From: Caulobacter sp. NIBR2454
GTDB taxonomy: Bacteria; Pseudomonadota; Alphaproteobacteria; Caulobacterales; Caulobacteraceae
DNA length: 64,000 nucleotides
Direction of reading: 5' to 3'
Assembly: GCF_027474405.1 (NCBI RefSeq)
Contig: NZ_CP114871.1
Span: 2,489,001 to 2,553,000, forward strand
Made by a program: the position numbers and the translations under genes. Positions 7,713 to 64,000 of the stretch are shown in pieces. The notes beneath the pieces are model-generated. The model had not been told where the DNA came from. It worked only from the letters and a program-made list of their open reading frames with translations, and did not search any database. Every line of letters begins with the position of its first letter. Position 1 is the stretch's first letter.

Positions 7713-9053
7713 ATGAAACGACTAGTCGCGACTCTCATTGCGGCGCTCAGCATCACGGGCGCGGCGCAAGCCGTGGAGCGCAAGGCGCTGATCGGGGGCA
7801 CCCTGATCGACGGCACCCTGCGCGAGCCGATCCGCGACAGCGTTATCCTGATCGAGGACAAGCGCATCGTCGCCGTGGGCACGGTCGGCTCCCTGGCCAT
7901 TCCCGCCGATGCGGAGCGCATCTCGACCGAGGGCATGACCGTCATGCCCGGCCTGTGGGACATGCACGTCCACCTGATGCTCAGCGGCCATTCGGACTAT
8001 CCGCACTGGCATTCGACCTATGTGGGCGACGTCCAGCGCGACGTCATCATGCCCGCCGGCGCCAAGCAGTTGCTGATGGCCGGCGTCACCGGCGCCCGCG
8101 ACCTGGGCGCCCCGCTGGAGGAAAGCATCGCCGTGCGCGACGCCATCGCCAGCGGCAAGATCCCCGGCCCGACCCTGTTCATCTCCGGCCCCTTCATCCA
8201 GAAGAAATCCCCGCCCGGCGCCGAACACTACCGCTGGGGCGTCTCCTCGCCCGAGGACGCCCGCGCCAAGGTGCGCCGCATCGCCGCCGCCGGGGTCGAC
8301 ACCGTCAAGCTGATCGACGTGGACCAGATGAGCGAGGCCGAGATCAAGGCCGTGGTCGACGAGGCCCACGCCCACAAGCTGCCGGTCGTCGGCCACGCCC
8401 ACCGCCCGGATGAAATCCGCCTGGGCCTGAAATACGGGGTCGATGTCTTCGAGCACACCGGCCTGGGCACCTCGGCCGAATACCCCGAGGACATCGTCAA
8501 GGCCCTGTCCGAGCGCACCGCCCGCAGCGGCGGCGCCGGCCTGCTCTACTGGACCCCCACCGTCTCGATCCTCAACAACTACCCCGCCTGGATCAAGGAC
8601 CACGAGTTCGTCGACGCCGTCGACTGGCACGAGGGCCTGCCCCCGCAGATCGTCGCCGACATCAAAGGCTCCCTCACCCACCCCGAGCGCATCGCCTATT
8701 TCCAGCAGGTGCCCCAGCGCGTCCCGACCCTGAAGCGCAAGTTCGAGCAACTGCGCGCCTCGGGCGCCGTGCTGCTGATCGGCACGGACTCAGGCGTGCC
8801 GATGATGTTCCACTCGGGCAGCACCTGGCAGGAGATGGACCTGTGGGTGAACGGCTTCGGCGTCCCGCCCATCGAGACCATCCGCGCCGCCACCTACTGG
8901 CCCGCCGTCGCCATGAAGGCCGACAAGGACTACGGCACCATCACCGAAGGCAAATACGCCGACATCATCGCGGTGAAGGGGGATGTGCTCAAACACATGG
9001 ACCTGCTCCAGCGGGTCGACATGGTGGTCAAGCATGGGAAGCGGGTGAAGTGA
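7713..9053 (+). CDS. Exported amidohydrolase-family metal-dependent hydrolase
   Basis: The protein has 446 residues and begins with a signal peptide (MKRLVATLIAALSITGAAQA, probable cleavage after AQA). The amidohydrolase fold follows: metal ligands in DMHVHL near residue 87, a Lys in DTVKLIDVD that may be the carbamylated bridging ligand, His in VVGHAHRP and FEHTGLG, and the catalytic Asp in LIGTDSG. The C-terminal strand GKYADIIAVKGD completes the composite beta-sandwich. Relatives are imidazolonepropionase-like and prolidase-like periplasmic hydrolases, so a cyclic amide or peptide-type substrate is likely but not predictable. A GGGGGA ribosome-binding site precedes the ATG. It appears to be a single-gene unit. 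Confidence 0.88.
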   Translation: MKRLVATLIAALSITGAAQAVERKALIGGTLIDGTLREPIRDSVILIEDKRIVAVGTVGSLAIPADAERISTEGMTVMPGLWDMHVHLMLSGHSDYPHWHSTYVGDVQRDVIMPAGAKQLLMAGVTGARDLGAPLEESIAVRDAIASGKIPGPTLFISGPFIQKKSPPGAEHYRWGVSSPEDARAKVRRIAAAGVDTVKLIDVDQMSEAEIKAVVDEAHAHKLPVVGHAHRPDEIRLGLKYGVDVFEHTGLGTSAEYPEDIVKALSERTARSGGAGLLYWTPTVSILNNYPAWIKDHEFVDAVDWHEGLPPQIVADIKGSLTHPERIAYFQQVPQRVPTLKRKFEQLRASGAVLLIGTDSGVPMMFHSGSTWQEMDLWVNGFGVPPIETIRAATYWPAVAMKADKDYGTITEGKYADIIAVKGDVLKHMDLLQRVDMVVKHGKRVK

Positions 9054-9198
9054 GGGAAAGAATGCCCAGAACCTTAGCTAGGCCCTAGTCTTTAGCTGTG
9101 GCCTTATGACAGGCAGCTCGCCTAACAAAGGTCTTGCAGGTGGTCACGCAAAGCGATCAAGCTGAAGCTGCACAATCGGGCGGCGAGGCGAGGCGAGC

Positions 9199-56784: not shown

Positions 56785-58575
56785 GTGGCCGAGCTGCGCG
56801 CCGCCGCCGCCGACCGGCGCGTCCTCGCCCTCATCGCCGGCGCCGTCGCGGCCGGGCTGCTGGCGGGGGTCCTGATCTTCTGGGTCTGGTTCCTGCGCGA
56901 TCTGCCGAAACTCCCCGACGCCGAGGGGCTGATCGTCCACGGCCGCCCCGCCGCCCTGCGCCTGGTGGACCGCAATGGCGAGCTTTTGGCCACGCGCGGT
57001 CCCATCGTGGGCGAGCGGATCGACGCCGCCACCCTGCCCCCGCACGTGGTCCGCGCCTTCCTGGCGGCCGAGGACCGGCGCTTCTACGAGCACCACGGCG
57101 TGGATATCCGGGGCCTGCTGCGCGCCGCCTTCGTCAATGCGAAGGCCGGCGAGATCGAGGAAGGCGGCTCCACCCTCACCCAGCAGCTGGCCAAGGGTCA
57201 GTTCGACCGCCCCGCTCGGACCCTCAAGCGTAAGGTGCAGGAGGCGATCCTCGCCCGCCGGATCGAGCGCCGGTGGACCAAGGACCAGATCCTCGGCCTC
57301 TACCTGAACCGCATCTATTTCGGGGAGAAAGCCTATGGCCTATCGGGCGCCAGCCGCACCTATTTCGGCCGCGCCCCCGCCGACCTGACCCTTAGCCAAG
57401 CCGCCCTCCTCGCCGCCCTGCCGCAAGCCCCCTCACGTCTCCAGCCGACCGAGGCGCGGGAGGCGGCGCTCAAGCGCTCGCGCCTCGTCCTCGACCGCAT
57501 GCGGCGCGAGGGCTGGATCACCGAGACCGAGCGCGCGGACGCCGCCGACCACCCGCCGCGCATCGTCCTGGCCCGCAAGCCGCACGACGGCGACCTGGGC
57601 TGGGCGCTGGACTTCGCCGCCGCCGAGGCCCGCCGCATGGTCGGCCGCCCCGACGCCGACCTGACCGTGCGCCTGACCCTCGACACCGCCCTGCAGACCG
57701 ACGCCGCCGCCATCCTGCGCGCCGAAATTCCCGCCCGGCGGCAAGGCGCCCTGGTGATCTTGGGCCAGGACGGCGCCGTCCGCGCCCTGGTCGGCGGCCG
57801 CGCCTACACCCCCGCCGCCTTCAACCGCGCCACGGTGGCCAAACGCCAGCCCGGCTCGGCCTTCAAGCCCTTCGTCTATGCCGCCGCCCTCGAAGACGGC
57901 GTGCGCCCCGGCGACCTGCGCTATGACGAGCCCATCGACATCGCCGGCTGGAGCCCTGAGAACTACAGCCAGCGCTTCACGGGCGAGGTCACCATCGCCG
58001 ACGCCTTCGCCCGCTCCCTCAACACCGTCGCCGCCCAGCTGGCCCAGGACGTGGGCGGCCGCCAGATCGCCGAGCTGTCCAAGCGCTTTGGCCTCTCGAC
58101 CCTGCCTGACGAGCCGAACCTGTCGGTGGCGCTCGGCAGCTACGAGGTCACCCTGCTGGAGCTGACCGGCGCCTATTCGGTCTTCCCCCGCGCCGGCTTC
58201 CAGGCCCGCCCCTGGGCGGTGTCCGAGATCGTCGGCGCCGACGGGGCGGTGCTGTTCCGCCACCAGACCACGCAGGTGCGCGTCTATCCCCCCGACCTCG
58301 CCGGCCAGATGGTCGGCATGATGCGCGGCGTCATCGACCACGGCACCGGCTTCCGCGCCCGTCTGGACCGCCCCGCCGCCGGCAAGACCGGCACCAGCCA
58401 GGACTACCGCGACGCCTGGTTCGTCGGCTTCACCCCCGACTTCACGGCGGGGGTGTGGATGGGCGATGACCGCAACCGCCCCCTGGACGGCGTCACCGGC
58501 GGCGACGTTCCCGCCCTGCTGTGGAAGCGGGCGATGGTGCGGGCGCACGCGGGGCTGCCCGCGAGAAACTTTTAG
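56785..58575 (+). CDS. Class A penicillin-binding protein (bifunctional transglycosylase/transpeptidase)
   Basis: The 596-residue protein has a membrane anchor (VLALIAGAVAAGLLAGVLIF), a GT51 transglycosylase (FLAAEDRRFYEHHGVDIRGL, with the catalytic Glu in AAEDRRFY; EEGGSTLTQQLAKGQF) and a transpeptidase with SXXK in PGSAFKPF, SXN in RSLNTVA and KTG in AGKTGTSQDY. It is shorter than PBP1a and lacks the OB insert, like PBP1C/PbpZ-type enzymes. It polymerises and cross-links peptidoglycan. The GTG start has no strong ribosome-binding site. Confidence 0.94.
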   Translation: MAELRAAAADRRVLALIAGAVAAGLLAGVLIFWVWFLRDLPKLPDAEGLIVHGRPAALRLVDRNGELLATRGPIVGERIDAATLPPHVVRAFLAAEDRRFYEHHGVDIRGLLRAAFVNAKAGEIEEGGSTLTQQLAKGQFDRPARTLKRKVQEAILARRIERRWTKDQILGLYLNRIYFGEKAYGLSGASRTYFGRAPADLTLSQAALLAALPQAPSRLQPTEAREAALKRSRLVLDRMRREGWITETERADAADHPPRIVLARKPHDGDLGWALDFAAAEARRMVGRPDADLTVRLTLDTALQTDAAAILRAEIPARRQGALVILGQDGAVRALVGGRAYTPAAFNRATVAKRQPGSAFKPFVYAAALEDGVRPGDLRYDEPIDIAGWSPENYSQRFTGEVTIADAFARSLNTVAAQLAQDVGGRQIAELSKRFGLSTLPDEPNLSVALGSYEVTLLELTGAYSVFPRAGFQARPWAVSEIVGADGAVLFRHQTTQVRVYPPDLAGQMVGMMRGVIDHGTGFRARLDRPAAGKTGTSQDYRDAWFVGFTPDFTAGVWMGDDRNRPLDGVTGGDVPALLWKRAMVRAHAGLPARNF

Positions 58576-58585
58576 CTCCGACCTT

Positions 58586-58712
58586 CGCCTCTCCCCCTCG
58601 GGGGGAGAGGGTTGGGTGAGGGGGCCGCTGAGCTTCAACCCCAAACCAAGCCAGACGCCGACCCGCCAAAGGCCCCTCACCCTACCCTCTCCCCACAGGT
58701 GGGGAGAGGCGA
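58586..58712. repeat. Family-1 intergenic repeat, copy H
   Basis: 127 bases with the usual ends, GGTTGGGTGAGGGGG central arm, very like copy G including the inner GCTGAGC.TCAACCCCAA and CCGACCCGCC. It lies between the penicillin-binding protein and hydrolase genes. Confidence 0.92.
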
Positions 58713-58745
58713 TAGACCTCTCCGCCAAACGATCGGAACCCCCCC

Positions 58746-59474
58746 ATGCCCCACGTCACCCACCGCGGCCAGCGCATCCACTACACCGTCGACGGCGCTG
58801 GCCCGCTGGTGGTGCTCCAGCACGGCCTGTTCATGGACGCCGCCAGCTGGAAGACGAACGGCTTCGTCGACGCCCTGACCGCCGCGGGCTTCCAGGTCGC
58901 CTGCGTCGACAGCCTGGGCCACGGCCTCAGCGACCGCCCCCTCGACCCCGCCCTCTATGTGCAGCAGCAGCGGGCCGGCGACATCGTGGCGGTGATCGAC
59001 GACCTGGGCGCCGAGCGGGCGCACCTGATCGGCTACTCCATGGGCGCCTGGATGTCGGTGGGCGTGGCCAAGCATCACCCCGGCCGCCTCGCCTCCCTCA
59101 CTGTCGGTGGCTGGGACCTCGTGAACGGCGTGCCGCGCATGCCGGGCGGGACCCTGACCTTCGACGTGTTCATGGCCTTCTCCCGCGCCGTCGCCCCGGC
59201 CCTGGTCAGCTGGGTGACGCCGGACATCGAGCCGGCCATCCGCGCCTGTTTCGACAACCTGGCCGACCTGGACGGCGCCGCCGACGCGGTCCTGAACGGC
59301 GGCTTCCCGATCCTGCTGTGGGACGGCGTTAACGACCCCTACCACAACCCCAGCCAGGCCTTCGCCGCCGCCAACGGCCTGCCGTTCCTGTCCACCCCCG
59401 GCGATCACCTGGGCGCGATCCTCCAGCCTCAGGCGATCGATGGGGTGGTGGGGTTTTTGAAGGGTTCCAACTAA
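58746..59474 (+). CDS. Alpha/beta-fold hydrolase
   Basis: The 242-residue protein has the oxyanion strand LVVLQHGLFMDAASW, the elbow GYSMGAWMSVG, an acid in LWDGVNDPYHNP and a His in PGDHLGAIL. It resembles small epoxide-hydrolase/esterase-like cytosolic enzymes. The substrate is unknown. A perfect 8-bp hairpin follows its stop. Confidence 0.9.
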   Translation: MPHVTHRGQRIHYTVDGAGPLVVLQHGLFMDAASWKTNGFVDALTAAGFQVACVDSLGHGLSDRPLDPALYVQQQRAGDIVAVIDDLGAERAHLIGYSMGAWMSVGVAKHHPGRLASLTVGGWDLVNGVPRMPGGTLTFDVFMAFSRAVAPALVSWVTPDIEPAIRACFDNLADLDGAADAVLNGGFPILLWDGVNDPYHNPSQAFAAANGLPFLSTPGDHLGAILQPQAIDGVVGFLKGSN

Positions 59475-59476
59475 TC

Positions 59477-59501
59477 CCGCTCATCCCCGCGAGATGAGCG
59501 G
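59477..59501 (+). terminator. Hairpin after the hydrolase gene
   Basis: CCGCTCAT and ATGAGCGG form a perfect 8-bp stem around a 9-base loop, two bases beyond the hydrolase stop codon. Only TT follows, so strength is uncertain. Confidence 0.5.
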
Positions 59502-59885
59502 TTCGCTGGAAGCGGTATAAAAGCAATGACATAGCGATCGGCTCACTGCCTGTGTAGGAGTTGTGCAGGCCGATCGGTAACTTAGCCGACCGCGATCGCT
59601 GTCTAGTTTCTGGCTTAAGCGCAAATACTCGTGCTCGTGGCGACGGCGCTTGGGTTGTCGTCGTTGAGGCTATGCTTGATCTCCTAACGGAAGCGCTGTT
59701 GGACCAGAAATTCCCGCTGGCACGACACGTTTGGGCGGGCGGCGCTGTTCGACGATCAAGCGTAAGAACGCGACGCGACAAAAGCGCGCAATACGAGTGT
59801 GCATCCACTCTTTCCCTCGACGCGAGCAAAGCTTCACCATAGGCAACCTCGAAAGGAAGGTCGGGGAGGCCCATGCGGCACTGTC
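59502..59885. other. Non-coding stretch at the border of the accessory segment
   Basis: About 380 bases with no supported gene. A few short frames lack family features. It contains an inverted repeat, CGATCGGC (59535-59542) and GCCGATCG (59569-59576), around a 26-base segment, which could be an operator or the base of an RNA hairpin. The base composition is lower in GC than upstream. The promoter of the metallo-beta-lactamase gene should lie here. Confidence 0.5.
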
Positions 59886-60974
59886 ATGGCTAATTTTTTC
59901 GAGATCGATTTTCTTAGCGTCGAGACAAAGAAAAGCGGCGACGCAATTACTATCCGCTACGAGATAGACGGCATGACCCGGATCCACGTCGTTGATGGCG
60001 GTTTCCAGTCTACGGGTCTCAGCGTCGTTCAACACGTCAAACAGCACTACGGCGTGGACTCCTACATTGATCATGTCGTCGTCACCCACCCGGACGGCGA
60101 TCATGCCGGCGGGCTGCGGACGGTGCTCGAGGAAATGAACGTGGGCGCCCTCTGGATGCTGCGCCCCTGGATACATGCCGCAGAGCTCATCGATCGCTTC
60201 GAGACCTACAATTCAATCGAGCGTCTCGCTGGCCGCCTTAAGTCCGCATATCCGAATCTGTCTGCTCTTGAGGAAATCGCGGAAAGGCGCGGCATACCGA
60301 TCTACGAGCCATTCCAAGGCGAGCGCATCGGGGATTTCGCGGTCTTAGCTCCCACTAAGAGGCGCTATCTCGACCTGGTGGTTGAGTCAGAAAAGACACC
60401 TGAAGCCGTTGAGGAGGAAGCAAGCGCTACGACAAAGGCAGAGTCGTTTTTCGAGAGCGTCCTGGCCAAAGTGGTCAATCTCGTCAAGGCAGCATGGGGC
60501 GAAGAAGTCTTCTCGACCCAAGAAACTAGTGCTGAAAACGAGATGAGCGTCATTCAGTACGCAAATCTCTGCGGGAAACGTGTGTTGCTGACAGGCGACG
60601 CCGGCCGTGGTGCGCTCGCGGAAGCCGCAGACTATGCTCCGTTTGTCGGTCTTCAGTTGCCGGGTATCGACCGTATTCAAGTCCCGCACCATGGCTCGCG
60701 CAAGAATGTATCGACCGAACTGCTTGATCGCTGGCTGGGCCCGCGTCTTTCCGCAAAACCCAGCGAAGGACAGGAGACGTTCACAGCGATTGTGAGTTCT
60801 GCGCTTGAGGACAAAGACCATCCCCGGAAGTCCGTTGTACGGGCTTTCGTGCATCGCGGGGCAAAGGTGATCGCGACCGAGGGGCAGAGCACGCGAACAG
60901 GGCACAACGCACCCGCCCGGGAGGGTTGGGTCGCGGCAAAGCCCATCGCGTACCCCGACCAACAGGAAGACTAG
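59886..60974 (+). CDS. ComEC-like metallo-beta-lactamase-fold hydrolase
   Basis: The 362-residue soluble protein has the metal-binding motif THPDGDHAGGL (HxDxDH form), a ligand Asp in LLTGDAGRGAL and His in VPHHGSRKN, the pattern of ComEC/Rec2 and related phosphodiesterase-like MBL proteins. A low-complexity, Glu-rich insert with helices (about residues 160-215: TPEAVEEEASATTKAESFFE) interrupts the domain. Start at ATG 59886. Free-standing ComEC-like MBL proteins paired with membrane proteins occur in accessory and defence regions. The next gene, 11 bases on, is a membrane protein. Substrate unknown. Confidence 0.85.
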   Translation: MANFFEIDFLSVETKKSGDAITIRYEIDGMTRIHVVDGGFQSTGLSVVQHVKQHYGVDSYIDHVVVTHPDGDHAGGLRTVLEEMNVGALWMLRPWIHAAELIDRFETYNSIERLAGRLKSAYPNLSALEEIAERRGIPIYEPFQGERIGDFAVLAPTKRRYLDLVVESEKTPEAVEEEASATTKAESFFESVLAKVVNLVKAAWGEEVFSTQETSAENEMSVIQYANLCGKRVLLTGDAGRGALAEAADYAPFVGLQLPGIDRIQVPHHGSRKNVSTELLDRWLGPRLSAKPSEGQETFTAIVSSALEDKDHPRKSVVRAFVHRGAKVIATEGQSTRTGHNAPAREGWVAAKPIAYPDQQED

Positions 60975-60985
60975 GCTTCGCTTGC

Positions 60986-61603
60986 ATGGCAAAGACTCTC
61001 AAGCATGAGAACCGTCCAATGCTCGTGCTGGTACTTCTGGCAAACCTCGCCTTGTTTGCGCTGGTGCTGAAGACAAACTCGATCGTGTTCGCAGATGTCG
61101 TTGCCGCCACGAAGGAATGGCAGAGCCTGCTTCCGGCGGGACTGGGCCTAGTGGTCTGCGGAATTGTCAATGAATTGCTCTCGCCCGCCCTGAAGGCACG
61201 TCTAGTATTCTGGCGCTGGCGGAATCCACTCCCCGGCAGCGAGGCGTTCACCCGTTATGCTACGGCCGACCCTCGGGTCGATATGGAACGGCTACGAAAG
61301 AAATTGGGAAAGTTGCCGACCTCACCGGAAGAGCAAAACGCGGCTTGGTACCAACTCTACAAGAAGGTTTCTGGAACAGCGCCCATTACCGACGCGCACA
61401 GAGCCTTTCTCTTCTGCCGTGACTATGCGGCTATGGCGGCGCTGCTGTCCGTCGTACTCGGGGGTGTCGTCATCTGGCAGGTTAGGCCATTGCAGACCGT
61501 ACTCGTCTATCTGCTGGTCCTAGCGACGCAGTACTTGGTCGTCCGCATAGCTGCCGCGAACGCTGGGCGCCGTCTCGTCACCAACGTGCTAGCGACAACT
61601 TGA
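60986..61603 (+). CDS. Membrane protein paired with the MBL-fold hydrolase
   Basis: The 205-residue protein has two N-terminal helices (VLVLLANLALFALVLKTNSI and LLPAGLGLVVCGIVNELLS), a soluble loop of about 85 residues (VFWRWRNPLPGSEAFTRYAT, DMERLRKKLGKLPTSPEEQN) and two C-terminal helices (AALLSVVLGGVVIWQV, VLVYLLVLATQYLVVRIAA). It starts 11 bases after the MBL gene and is surely co-transcribed. No family name comes to mind; the helix-loop-helix layout is like membrane effectors of two-gene defence systems. Confidence 0.75.
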   Translation: MAKTLKHENRPMLVLVLLANLALFALVLKTNSIVFADVVAATKEWQSLLPAGLGLVVCGIVNELLSPALKARLVFWRWRNPLPGSEAFTRYATADPRVDMERLRKKLGKLPTSPEEQNAAWYQLYKKVSGTAPITDAHRAFLFCRDYAAMAALLSVVLGGVVIWQVRPLQTVLVYLLVLATQYLVVRIAAANAGRRLVTNVLATT

Positions 61604-61691
61604 GCAGGTGGGCGATGATCTGGTTCGCGAGGTGAGCTGTTGAATCGTCGCATTTCCAGTGCTTGGCCCGAAGTACCGCAGGCCGTCGCCT

Positions 61692-62156
61692 TCAGCTCAG
61701 ACCTAGCTCAGCCCACCCTAGTAGCTGGTTGGCCTCCGGAAATTCATCCGGCTCGATGAGAGCCCTCGCGACCCGCAAGCAGGCTAGCGCAGCTTCTGGA
61801 TCGGTGGGCTCCCGGTCCATCAATCTCTCCAGCAAAGCCATTCGCTCTTCCCGGTTCGCCTCAATCCGCGCCCACATGGCGTCGAGCCGTCGCCCTTCCG
61901 GTAGCGACTGCGTTTGATCGTTGGAGAGGCCCGCCGCCTTCAGCATGTCCCACACCTTGCTCTCCAAGGTCGGGTAGGCGTCGTAGAGCCACTCGGCTTC
62001 CTCGTGCAGGACGAGGTACTGCCGGCAAAGGTCAAGGCAGGCGTCGCCGCCGACGGCGGGCAAGGCGGGCGCTACGGACGCCGACGAGCCGCCCGCAAGG
62101 ATCGACCGCCGGGACATGGCCAGCCCCGCTGGACTATGGCTCCGCGACCGGCTCAT
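61692..62156 (-). CDS. Exported (Tat-like leader) helical protein, paralogue of the first operon gene
   Basis: The protein has 154 residues from ATG 62156, or about 141 from ATG 62117. The leader MSRRSILAGGSSASVAPALP carries a twin arginine. The mature part is helical: CRQYLVLHEEAEWLYDAYPT, LESKVWDMLKAAG, ERMALLERLMDREPTDPEAA, ALIEPDEFPEANQLLGWAEL. The layout and many positions match the protein at 62569-63060. It is the third gene of an operon with four-base overlaps. Function is unknown. Confidence 0.75.
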   Translation of the reverse strand: MSRSRSHSPAGLAMSRRSILAGGSSASVAPALPAVGGDACLDLCRQYLVLHEEAEWLYDAYPTLESKVWDMLKAAGLSNDQTQSLPEGRRLDAMWARIEANREERMALLERLMDREPTDPEAALACLRVARALIEPDEFPEANQLLGWAELGLS

Positions 62157-62572
62157 GACGGCCCTCCGATCACAGCGCGGACCAGCCCGGCGGCGTGCCG
62201 CCAGTCCGCAGCCGTGAAGAGGCTACTCGGGAACCGACCGAACTCATGGTTGGCGTAGTAAGGCGTGAACAATGCCGCCACCGCCGCCATGCCGGCCGGC
62301 GGCTCGATGAGGCCTGCTTGGCGTGCGCAACGCAGCGCCTTGGTCAGGTCATGGCGAAGGTGCCTGCGATTCCAATCGTCGCTCACCCCGGACGCCAGCA
62401 GACGGCTCTTCAGGGCCAACTCCATGGCGATGGCCGTCATGTGCGCAGCTTCCTGCGGATGGGCCTGAGCGATCTCCTCCACCCCGCTCACGAAGGTGGC
62501 GGCGTTGTCTCGGAACACTGGCGCAAGATAACGGTCAGCTCCGTCCATGGGTCGCCTGATGACGCGGCTCAT
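62153..62572 (-). CDS. HEPN-like helical protein
   Basis: The 139-residue protein contains AAHMTAIAMELALKSRLLAS, RHDLTKALRCARQAGLIEPP and LFTPYYANHEFGRFPSS. This is the layout of HEPN domains (ELxLKxxLLxxG, HDLxxLLxxAxxxGL, then a helix with YxxxRYP-like residues), but the catalytic RxxxH of HEPN RNases is not obvious. Start and stop overlap the neighbours by four bases on each side. In defence and toxin systems HEPN proteins are often RNases; here the role is unproven. Confidence 0.7.
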   Translation of the reverse strand: MSRVIRRPMDGADRYLAPVFRDNAATFVSGVEEIAQAHPQEAAHMTAIAMELALKSRLLASGVSDDWNRRHLRHDLTKALRCARQAGLIEPPAGMAAVAALFTPYYANHEFGRFPSSLFTAADWRHAAGLVRAVIGGPS

Positions 62573-63060
62573 GCGACGACCTCCGCTGGAGCCAGGACAC
62601 TCAGGACGCGTCGGAGGATGAGATTGGCTTCCTCGCTGTCGTCCTTGGTGATCAGGCGCAATAGGACCTTCAGCGAGGCGATCGCCGCCGCCCAGGTGGT
62701 CGGCGGCGTGGCGAGCAGCACCTCCAGCGCCACGCGCTCGTTTTCGTGGGCGATCTCCTCCCGCGCCTCGATCTCAGCGAAGGATTGGGCGGCAGGATGC
62801 GCCCGCTGTTCTTCATCCGACATGGCGATCCAACCGATCGCTCGGTTCAGATGGCTCTCAAGCTTGCTCCAGGAGGCGTAAAGCTCTGAGGTTTCCGCTC
62901 CGGCGTTGAGGAAGGCCTCGCAGGCCTTTAGACCGAGATCTTCGCTCCGCCGGACAATCGGAGGCATCAACGGCAATGCTGACGTACCGGCGAAGATAGC
63001 TCGCCTGGAGAGCGATAAAGGGCGCGGGAGGTCGTCTCCCGTCTTTAGACGTGAGGTCAT
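62569..63060 (-). CDS. Exported (Tat-like leader) helical protein, first gene of the HEPN-like operon
   Basis: The 163-residue protein has a leader with a twin Arg (LSLSRRAIFAGTSALPLMPP) and a helical body: LKACEAFLNAGAETSELYAS, WSKLESHLNRAIGWIAMSDE, EREEIAHENERVALEVLL-like, then LLRLITKDDSEEANLILRRV. It is paralogous with the third gene (C-x-x-x-L...E-x-x-x-LY...LES...ERxALLExL...EAN.LL). It is divergent from an XRE regulator about 65 bases away. No function is known to me. Confidence 0.75.
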   Translation of the reverse strand: MTSRLKTGDDLPRPLSLSRRAIFAGTSALPLMPPIVRRSEDLGLKACEAFLNAGAETSELYASWSKLESHLNRAIGWIAMSDEEQRAHPAAQSFAEIEAREEIAHENERVALEVLLATPPTTWAAAIASLKVLLRLITKDDSEEANLILRRVLSVLAPAEVVA

Positions 63061-63124
63061 GGGCGCGACTCGCTATGGTGGCGCTGCGCATCGGGCGATG
63101 TCAGCGAGCGTGAAAAAGTAGCAT

Positions 63125-63376
63125 ATGCGAGAAAAAGTTGCAATAACTGCCGCGCAAATTCGTGCGGCTCGTTCGCTGCTAGGCTGGAATGGCGCGCAGC
63201 TCGCTGAAGCCTCACAGGTTTCGGTCGCGACTATTCGACGGATGGAGAGCGCAGCGGGTCCTGACCGCAGCTCAGCAGCCAACATCAGCGCCGTGCGCCG
63301 CGCACTCGAAGAAGCGGGTGTTATCTTTCAGGATGAAGACCACGCGGCCGGGGTCGGCGTCCGCCTTCGGAAATAA
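63125..63376 (+). CDS. XRE-family helix-turn-helix regulator
   Basis: The 83-residue protein reads ITAAQIRAARSLLGWNGAQL, AEASQVSVATIRRMESAAGP and VRRALEEAGVIFQDEDHAAG, ending GVRLRK, the compact alphaproteobacterial XRE repressor type often found at the edges of mobile elements. It is divergent from the HEPN-like operon, sharing a 64-base promoter region, so it probably represses that operon. Confidence 0.9.
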   Translation: MREKVAITAAQIRAARSLLGWNGAQLAEASQVSVATIRRMESAAGPDRSSAANISAVRRALEEAGVIFQDEDHAAGVGVRLRK

Positions 63377-63478
63377 CCTCAACCCGTTGCGCCGCCCTCG
63401 GCGACCCGCTTTACTCGCACAATCCAAAGTTGTTGCGCGCCTTCCCGTGCTGGAGCCGTGCGAGTAGAGCGAGCGTCC

Positions 63479-63688
63479 ATGCGGAAACCCGCCAAACCCG
63501 TCGATTGGGACTACGCCGTCGATCTGTGGATCGAGATGGTCAACGGCACGCTAGAGGAAGCCAAGGCGGAAGCTCTGCGCGTCTCGAAGAATTGCAGGCG
63601 GCTCGGGTTCGCCTATGAGGCCAAGGCGATGAAGCGCACCGCCGAGCTGATCGAGAAGCGCATCAATCTTGACCCGACCGTCCACTGA
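63479..63688 (+). CDS. Small charged protein of unknown function
   Basis: From ATG 63479 the 69-residue frame reads RKPAKPVDWDYAVDLWIEMV, NGTLEEAKAEALRVSKNCRR, then a helix to RINLDPTVH. It is amphipathic and helical with no membrane part. The end overlaps a convergent DUF6118-like gene by 26 bases. I do not recognise the family; the neighbour suggests a mobile-element gene. Confidence 0.6.
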   Translation: MRKPAKPVDWDYAVDLWIEMVNGTLEEAKAEALRVSKNCRRLGFAYEAKAMKRTAELIEKRINLDPTVH

Positions 63689-64000
63689 CGGGCGGCGCGA
63701 TCTCCACCCGACAACGCACCGCCTCACCGGCCTTGGCCGCCGCCTCGGCGCACTGGTCCAGCACCTCACGATTGACAGTGACCAGCTTTGATCCCCGCGC
63801 CACCTCCGCCCAGGCCTGCGGACTGGCGGACGCCATCAGCCGCTGCCCCGCCGCCCACCGATCCAGACCTATCGTCCGCGCCGCCAGCCGCTCCGGCGCA
63901 TGCCACCGCGACGGCAAAGCGCGCGCGAGGGGACCCGCGAGCCCGGCATAGAGCGCGATGCCGGCGGCCACGCCCGCAAAGCCGACGCCCGCCAGCCATC
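63663..64000 (-). CDS. DUF6118-like protein, C-terminal part (continues beyond the window)
   Basis: The open minus-strand frame covers at least 112 residues and has no start in the window that must be used. It has a hydrophobic helix (GVAAGIALYAGLAGPLARAL), then WHAPERLAARTIGLDRWAAG, QRLMASASPQAWAEVARGSK and a final RCRVEIAPPV. This pattern fits DUF6118, which I associate with plasmids and integrative elements of Caulobacterales and Sphingomonadales. The segment right of about 63 kb may be part of such an element. Confidence 0.7.
   Translation of the reverse strand, partial: WLAGVGFAGVAAGIALYAGLAGPLARALPSRWHAPERLAARTIGLDRWAAGQRLMASASPQAWAEVARGSKLVTVNREVLDQCAEAAAKAGEAVRCRVEIAPPVSGRSGQD

Follow-up and report, generated by a model that had tools for sequence, protein, structure and literature searches.

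What does a soluble metallo-beta-lactamase (MBL) protein do when it is encoded beside a small membrane protein, and does such a pair belong to the defences of bacteria against phages? The question is raised by a locus of Caulobacter sp. NIBR2454, analysed within a stretch of 64,000 nucleotides (contig NZ_CP114871.1, positions 2,489,001 to 2,553,000) that we call the window. Here the gene of an MBL-fold hydrolase is followed, 11 bases after its stop codon, by the ATG of a gene for a four-helix membrane protein, which we name type A (Table 1). A preliminary description of this DNA had proposed a two-gene unit with this spacing, and both open reading frames (ORFs) and the gap were found as described; an in-frame TTG at 60926 lies upstream of the ATG of the second gene and, as a start, would make it overlap the first one. 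Our comparisons show that the pairing is conserved, that the membrane partner is exchanged, and that relatives of the pair sit at mobile and defence-hotspot locations and in E2-E1-JAB operons. We propose, with a probability of about 0.5, that the pair constitutes a membrane-tethered nuclease module of two genes directed against phages or other incoming DNA.

Conserved pairing and exchange of the membrane partner

Profile searches of both proteins gave a full-length identity for the MBL, which matches the PADLOC model PDLC04676 (PDC-M48B) over residues 1-362 (E 4.1e-167), while for the window type A protein Pfam, PADLOC and NCBIfam gave no hit at E<=1. The abbreviation PDC means phage defence candidate, as given in an excerpt of PMC11514479. 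The MBL also matches Pfam PF00753 (1.1e-5) and, partially, the PADLOC models of LmuA (3.5e-20), RTasMBL (9e-14) and Avs1a (6e-11), and a search of PDB sequences with its profile returned solely two ComEC chains at E<=0.001 (5e-5 and 6e-4). It carries the motifs TH68xD70xD72H73, T236-G-D238 and P267-H-H269-G, with which the motif set of ComEC-type MBL nucleases (HxDxDH, (T)GD and PHHG) is complete. By likeness, its HxDxDH would be the equivalent of the motif II residues of ComEC, whose MBL domain is described, in the portions of PMC8579336 and PMC12455585 consulted, as a Mn-dependent DNase that requires the aspartates of motif II. Because of this likeness we infer a DNase activity for the window MBL. 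The soluble HxDxDH-type protein with a Glu-rich insert that the preliminary description had seen was recovered, with H68, D70, D72 and H73 in place and the Glu-rich stretch at about residues 169-215; this insert could possibly contact the membrane or the partner. That description had also named membership of a well-characterised housekeeping group as a finding that would refute its reading. Homologues number at least 4422 among 8000 scored candidates, and the MBL has one match in its own genome. In the class 4 of 289 genomes have it (E<=1e-60) and in the genus 2 of 61 (E<=1e-40), the window included in both counts; given this sporadic spread, a housekeeping enzyme was rejected.

Adjacency to a membrane gene recurs in unrelated genomes and, both proteins having many homologues, is not a matter of chance. 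A scan in which one genome represented each species yielded 435 pattern matches and 271 relatives, from which the best 80 loci were chosen by MBL similarity. A small membrane protein is encoded within 700 bp of the MBL in 65 of these 80 loci, and these partners form about five sequence families: type A alone (13 loci), type B (15), type C (23), type D (2), type E (4), and combinations (8, some of which include E2-E1-JAB). Fourteen of the other 15 loci have an E2-E1-JAB gene directly upstream of the MBL, and in the last one (L058) no membrane gene was found. As a control, a small ORF with at least three helices lies within 350 bp of 56 of the 80 MBL genes, against 24 of 127 other soluble genes from the same loci. 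Viral contigs behave likewise, with a partner within 700 bp in 9 of 11 loci; the exceptions are a 6A locus, discussed below, with type B (L008) and a locus that starts at a contig end (L006). Fused MBL-membrane proteins were absent among the ORFs of the loci examined.

Two type C proteins (L004 and L007) match PDC-M48A, have four helices and adjoin the MBL, and therefore PDC-M48 already names a pair of an MBL and a four-helix protein. Scans of other partners (type B, four proteins; type D, two; type A, three) gave no match to PDC-M48A. Profile comparison makes the kinship of types B and D firm (1.6e-10), whereas the values for C-D (3.3e-4) and A-B (5.1e-4, with 0.0095 and 0.024 for its reversed controls) are suggestive only; A-D gave 0.021, and A-C (0.25), A-E and A-KwaA showed no similarity. 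A single superfamily of all partners was rejected, as kinship is firm for B and D only, and type D itself is loosely defined, its model having taken in B and C on iteration. Type E (L033, L041, L072 and L073) was assigned by eye as a fifth family of 155-156 amino acids and three helices, with no profile similarity to types A-D, and its ORF abuts the beginning of the MBL ORF or overlaps with it. Two Poribacteria loci (L054 and L065) place the MBL between two partners, with type C upstream and type B downstream.

Viewed from type A, the association is also recurrent. A selection on type A only gave 21 matching plasmid records, of which 13 neighbourhoods were read, and 12 of these hold an MBL-family ORF; in the thirteenth, from Rahnella, this ORF lies across the record origin, beyond two IS4 copies. 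In 4 of the 13 it is within 300 bp of type A (the one of S. nepalensis being a weak match, a 200-residue piece with 37 bits), and in 8 the nearest one belongs to a 6A-MBL gene 1.0-2.4 kb away, close to E2-E1-JAB sequence that in several cases is in pieces. Among 385 genomes of the class, type A occurs in two, the window and G114, both times adjacent to an MBL, which in G114 is shorter and 43 bp away. The single type A match in viral contigs adjoins an MBL too, and a tblastn search with the type A protein against 50,697 phage records found no match at E<=1e-3. From these plasmid, class-genome and viral-contig neighbourhoods, type A accompanies three MBL subfamilies: long M48B, short M48B and 6A-MBL.

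The exchange of partners is best seen in two Bradyrhizobium loci (L070 and L075) whose MBLs are 86.8% identical, one being with type B and the other with type A. In the stretches of DNA compared, the sole match longer than 100 bp runs from 7991 to 9073, i.e. the MBL gene, which would fit the movement of either the MBL gene or the partner as a cassette. A quick tree was built from 79 MBLs, left from 96 after deduplication; several of its branches are long, and the label of L039 (B or D) is uncertain. On this tree type A needs 13 changes, at least six of them forced by well-supported branches, and it clusters barely beyond shuffled labels (62 of 500 shuffles as low); for types B and C, which are clustered, the figure is 0 of 500 each.

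The type A protein has 144 homologues among 4626 scored candidates. The preliminary description had given it two helices on each side of a soluble middle of about 85 residues; the layout holds, with hydropathy peaks at residues 12-30, 47-65, 148-166 and 172-190, and the soluble middle measures about 80 residues instead. An AlphaFold2 model (mean predicted local distance difference test score, pLDDT, 88.4) has long helices at residues 5-30, 45-64, 132-165 and 169-204. Positively charged loops of membrane proteins face the cytoplasm, the positive-inside rule. Since the middle domain averages a net charge of +5.3 among homologues and loop 1 is slightly negative (-0.8), the middle domain, with both termini, is probably cytoplasmic. 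Of 12 residues invariant in the family, ten fall within this domain (K70 to R145), a candidate docking surface for the MBL. In a PDB sequence search the best type A hit had E 0.14 and type C had none; a VIA search gave nothing above helical-bundle noise, and the lack of KwaA among its matches excludes nothing.

Table 1. Features of the locus in window coordinates (aa, amino acids)
Feature	Position	Strand	Remarks
Left part of the ~19.7-kb insertion	59476..64000	.	Runs on beyond the window to ~79195 in window-equivalent numbering (C1:2568195); L136, L148
Gene 1, MBL-fold hydrolase, ComEC-like, single domain, PADLOC PDC-M48B	59886..60974	+	ATG at 59886, stop codon ends at 60974; 362 aa, soluble
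Metal motif II, HxDxDH (H68, D70, D72, H73)	60087..60104	+	Invariant in 19/19 rows of alignment A3
Glu-rich insert, variable in length, including an amphipathic stretch	60408..60530	+	Residues 187-204: mean hydrophobicity 0.37, moment 0.42 (other stretches of the MBL reach up to 0.52)
Motif T236-G-D238	60591..60599	+	T236 and D238 invariant, 19/19; middle residue G or A in relatives
Motif P267-H268-H269	60684..60692	+	P, H, H invariant, 19/19; PHHG 18/19, PHHA 1/19
Gene 2, four-helix membrane protein, type A partner	60986..61603	+	ATG at 60986, stop codon ends at 61603; 205 aa
Middle domain of the type A protein, residues 67-145	61184..61420	+	Mean net charge +5.3 over 45 homologues

E2-E1-JAB operons, islands and the P2 hotspot

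Several relatives of the pair are found in 6A systems, in which an MBL is linked to an E2-E1-JAB gene. Row 6a of Table 1 of Iyer et al. 2006 (PMC1779556, seen in part) has E2-E1-JAB proteins nearly always adjacent to an MBL. Thirteen of our 14 E2-E1-JAB loci carry a type B gene about 4.4 kb upstream of the MBL on the opposite strand, with the 6A-MBL and E2-E1-JAB genes between the two; the fourteenth (L090) is cut by the end of its contig, and type B is in two pieces in L080, whose E2-E1-JAB protein, the one scanned, has Prok-E2_A, ThiF and Prok-JAB domains. On a plasmid of B. glumae (L107) the order is 6A-MBL, E2-E1-JAB, type A and PDC-M48B, with 422.8 bits to NF058524 (cut-off 220) and 554 to NF058523 (cut-off 320). 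Acinetobacter sp. M131 (L118) holds type B, a WYL-annotated gene, 6A-MBL, E2-E1-JAB and an M48B-type MBL. Closest to the window is a congener (G566, L153) with a same-strand overlapping cluster of a 6A-MBL-like gene (101.6 bits to a hidden Markov model, HMM, built here from four sequences), E2-E1-JAB, MBL and type A, the last two being 63% and 40% identical to those of the window. The window pair is thus the second half of this cluster, present on its own. A search of the window's own genome with NF058523 gave at best 45.6 bits (cut-off 320), far from the window. In another locus (L021:1410-5502), a second type A-like gene precedes a 6A-MBL by 18 bases, followed by E2-E1-JAB, and this 6A cluster lies about 5.5 kb from a pair of type C and a PDC-M48B-type MBL.

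The window pair forms the left end of an insertion of about 19.7 kb that is missing, between the same two flanking genes, from the relative G572. The insertion includes XRE, DUF6118, MobA/MobL relaxase-helicase, TraD, TraG, HsdS, HsdM, HsdR, YgjP and phage-integrase genes, and of these the relaxase, TraG, type I restriction-modification and integrase genes lie mostly in its part beyond the window. Attachment repeats of at least 12 bases were not found between 59381-59900 and window-equivalent 77200-79399. Dispersed repeats of about 100-140 bp occur at 58584-58709 of the window and elsewhere in the genome, and a 6-kb query from G572 has 74 matches in the window's genome, mostly short.

Relatives with type C occupy a known defence site. 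In the P2-like E. coli phage D8, MBL and type C are convergent and adjoin gpA, and in both E. coli chromosomes read they lie between the portal protein and replication endonuclease genes, one of the two having an extra small gene there; the part of Rousset et al. 2022 consulted (PMC9122126) describes the site between those P2 genes as an anti-phage hotspot. Among 5426 E. coli genomes some match occurs in 353, and at least 80% of the query is covered in 21. The 60-80% identity band holds 23 of 354 records, where the two rows listed represent a 73% variant of the pair; 26 of the 30 E. coli rows listed do not represent the pair, being fragments of 53 bp or less from one end of the query. A 5.5-kb Citrobacter plasmid has MBL and type C in the same convergent layout. 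In Peduovirus P24E6b (NC_049389.1, 29648-30700) the annotation of the MBL gene as 'tail protein' is apparently wrong.

As for the neighbours of type A pairs, 97 ORFs from 14 loci (one of which gave none) were listed and 68 scanned, with no background control. In the 25 of 37 families shown, strong PADLOC matches include SIR2, HerA, PD-Lambda-1 and mads components; Pfam gave three integrases, and many neighbours are ordinary genes. Beside the window pair, the XRE and DUF6118-like genes of the preliminary description are both present, the former at 63125 (HTH_3, 23.4 bits with a cut-off of 23) and the latter at 63663-64376 (3e-24). Between them and the pair, 61692-63060 of the minus strand has three small genes with no confident Pfam family; the first (weak Pfam match, 0.11) and the third have an SRR-hydrophobic N-terminus like that of twin-arginine translocation (TAT) substrates. 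Rfam gave no match in 58000-64000.

Membrane-gated nuclease or another role

Judging by the conserved pairing and the position in the hotspot, the membrane partner may place the enzyme, or license it, against DNA that enters the cell, a role that by analogy resembles the logic of Kiwa, Zorya and SNIPE, where a membrane partner is combined with a DNA-acting enzyme (PMC12904381, in the portion consulted). In the mechanism that we propose, the MBL would be a cytoplasmic metal-dependent DNase of ComEC type, probably with Mn as its metal, which would dock on the positive cytoplasmic middle domain of the four-helix protein and would thereby be kept at the inner membrane; the four-helix protein would license it upon phage DNA entry or envelope disturbance. 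The membrane partner would be exchangeable, and in 6A systems the same module would be coupled to E2-E1-JAB and presumably be controlled by conjugation. A broader hypothesis, which we put forward tentatively, is that MBL and four-helix protein make up a general membrane-gated nuclease core with a repeatedly exchanged 'antenna', present in a minimal form (the window, P2 prophages) and in a form under ubiquitin-like conjugation (6A). If so, E2-E1-JAB would have been added as a controller to a membrane nuclease that already existed, and the 6A conjugation systems would gain a target or effector.

The preliminary description had recognised in the pair the plan of an enzyme with a membrane effector found in defence systems. 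The conserved unit and its mobile and defence contexts support that plan, in which the membrane protein could be either effector or sensor. In this sense, roles could be reversed, the MBL being a sensor or regulator and the four-helix protein a pore-forming or depolarising killer that is released upon infection, as in abortive-infection or toxin-antitoxin pairs. The variable element is indeed the membrane protein, with its five or so families, as expected of swappable effectors, and type A of L107 weakly matches the PADLOC model of the CBASS '2TM' effector (9.6e-4). However, 13 of 14 E2-E1-JAB loci keep the MBL by the conjugation enzyme and the membrane gene about 4.4 kb off on the other strand, an odd separation for a toxin and its direct antitoxin, and most invariant residues are in the middle domain and not in the helices, so that we hold reversed roles to be rather unlikely. 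MBL folds act on many substrates, and the enzyme might process a signal (a nucleotide second messenger, a ubiquitin-like conjugate or a lipid) to which the membrane protein responds. The presence in E2-E1-JAB operons would fit such a cascade; nevertheless, the nearest family models are LmuA, RTasMBL, Avs1a and ComEC, the domain of the last being a nuclease (PMC8579336, same portion), and no nucleotide cyclase is among the Pfam matches of the island proteins scanned, which makes signal processing improbable. The ComEC likeness, together with the relaxase and TraG genes of the island, could also point to an ordinary accessory of DNA uptake, conjugation or island maintenance devoid of any defence function. 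Yet the pair is also found in P2-like prophages at a site of anti-phage cargo, where the stretches read lack transfer genes, and it figures among the defence candidates of PADLOC; we consider an accessory role very improbable. The membrane-tethered nuclease can be approached through natural comparisons, namely L153 and the window (with and without E2-E1-JAB) and the partner swap of L070 with L075 and L106, which are suited to asking which stimulus the membrane protein detects and what is under the control of the 6A conjugation machinery.

Comparison with known systems

The MBL motifs and partial profile matches bring the window protein close to ComEC/Rec2, Avs1a, LmuA and RTasMBL, from which it differs in standing alone: no SMC, STAND or reverse transcriptase (RT) partner is among the Pfam matches of the island proteins scanned. 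A full ComEC was rejected, as the protein is soluble, has 362 residues and no competence (channel) domain, and reaches 29.6 of the 190 bits of the NCBIfam cut-off for ComEC_Rec2. Avs1 was also rejected (49.2 bits to the NCBIfam Avs1a model, far under its cut-off of 420), and so was Lamassu, for which the LmuA match is significant, PADLOC showing no cut-off for it, but partial and unaccompanied by SMC.

Kiwa (KwaA and KwaB) shares the combination of a small multi-helix inner-membrane protein with a DNA-acting partner (PMC12904381, likewise in part), and differs in that an MBL stands in the place of KwaB. Weak PADLOC matches were to KwaA for type C (9.6e-5) and to Csx27 for type D (1.2e-4) and for two type A proteins (0.0047 and 0.027). 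At the level of sequence Kiwa itself was rejected, since the window type A has no KwaA match in PADLOC and hhalign gave 0.16 against four KwaA sequences only; the window's own genome has no match to one KwaA model.

The preliminary description knew of no named system with this pair, a statement that does not stand: the MBL is PDC-M48B of PADLOC, whose companion PDC-M48A is likewise a small membrane protein with four helices, of another family, and the same parts occur beside 6A-MBL (NF058523 and NF058524), an anti-phage system named by NCBIfam. Open-access full texts hold no mention of 'PDC-M48' or '6A-MBL', a weak negative, with preprints and most subscription papers outside its scope, and no open-access paper since 2015 combines MBL, ubiquitin-like, JAB and phage, nor any Csx27 with KwaA. 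The likeness to 6A-MBL lies in types A and B and PDC-M48B-type MBLs that recur in its operons (L107, L118 and L153); the difference is that the window island (L136 and L148) has no E2-E1-JAB gene according to an HMM built here, and the window MBL reaches 18.6 bits to NF058524 with a cut-off of 220. With PDC-M48 the window shares a full-length PDC-M48B and the closely adjacent small four-helix membrane gene, and it differs in a partner that matches no PDC-M48A model at E<=1. On this profile evidence, the window pair is a PDC-M48 variant with a different partner family. A search requiring PDC-M48A models would miss the type A of the window and the type B and D partners scanned, and the PADLOC candidate now gains a concrete anatomy: one enzyme with interchangeable membrane partners, used alone or beside 6A.
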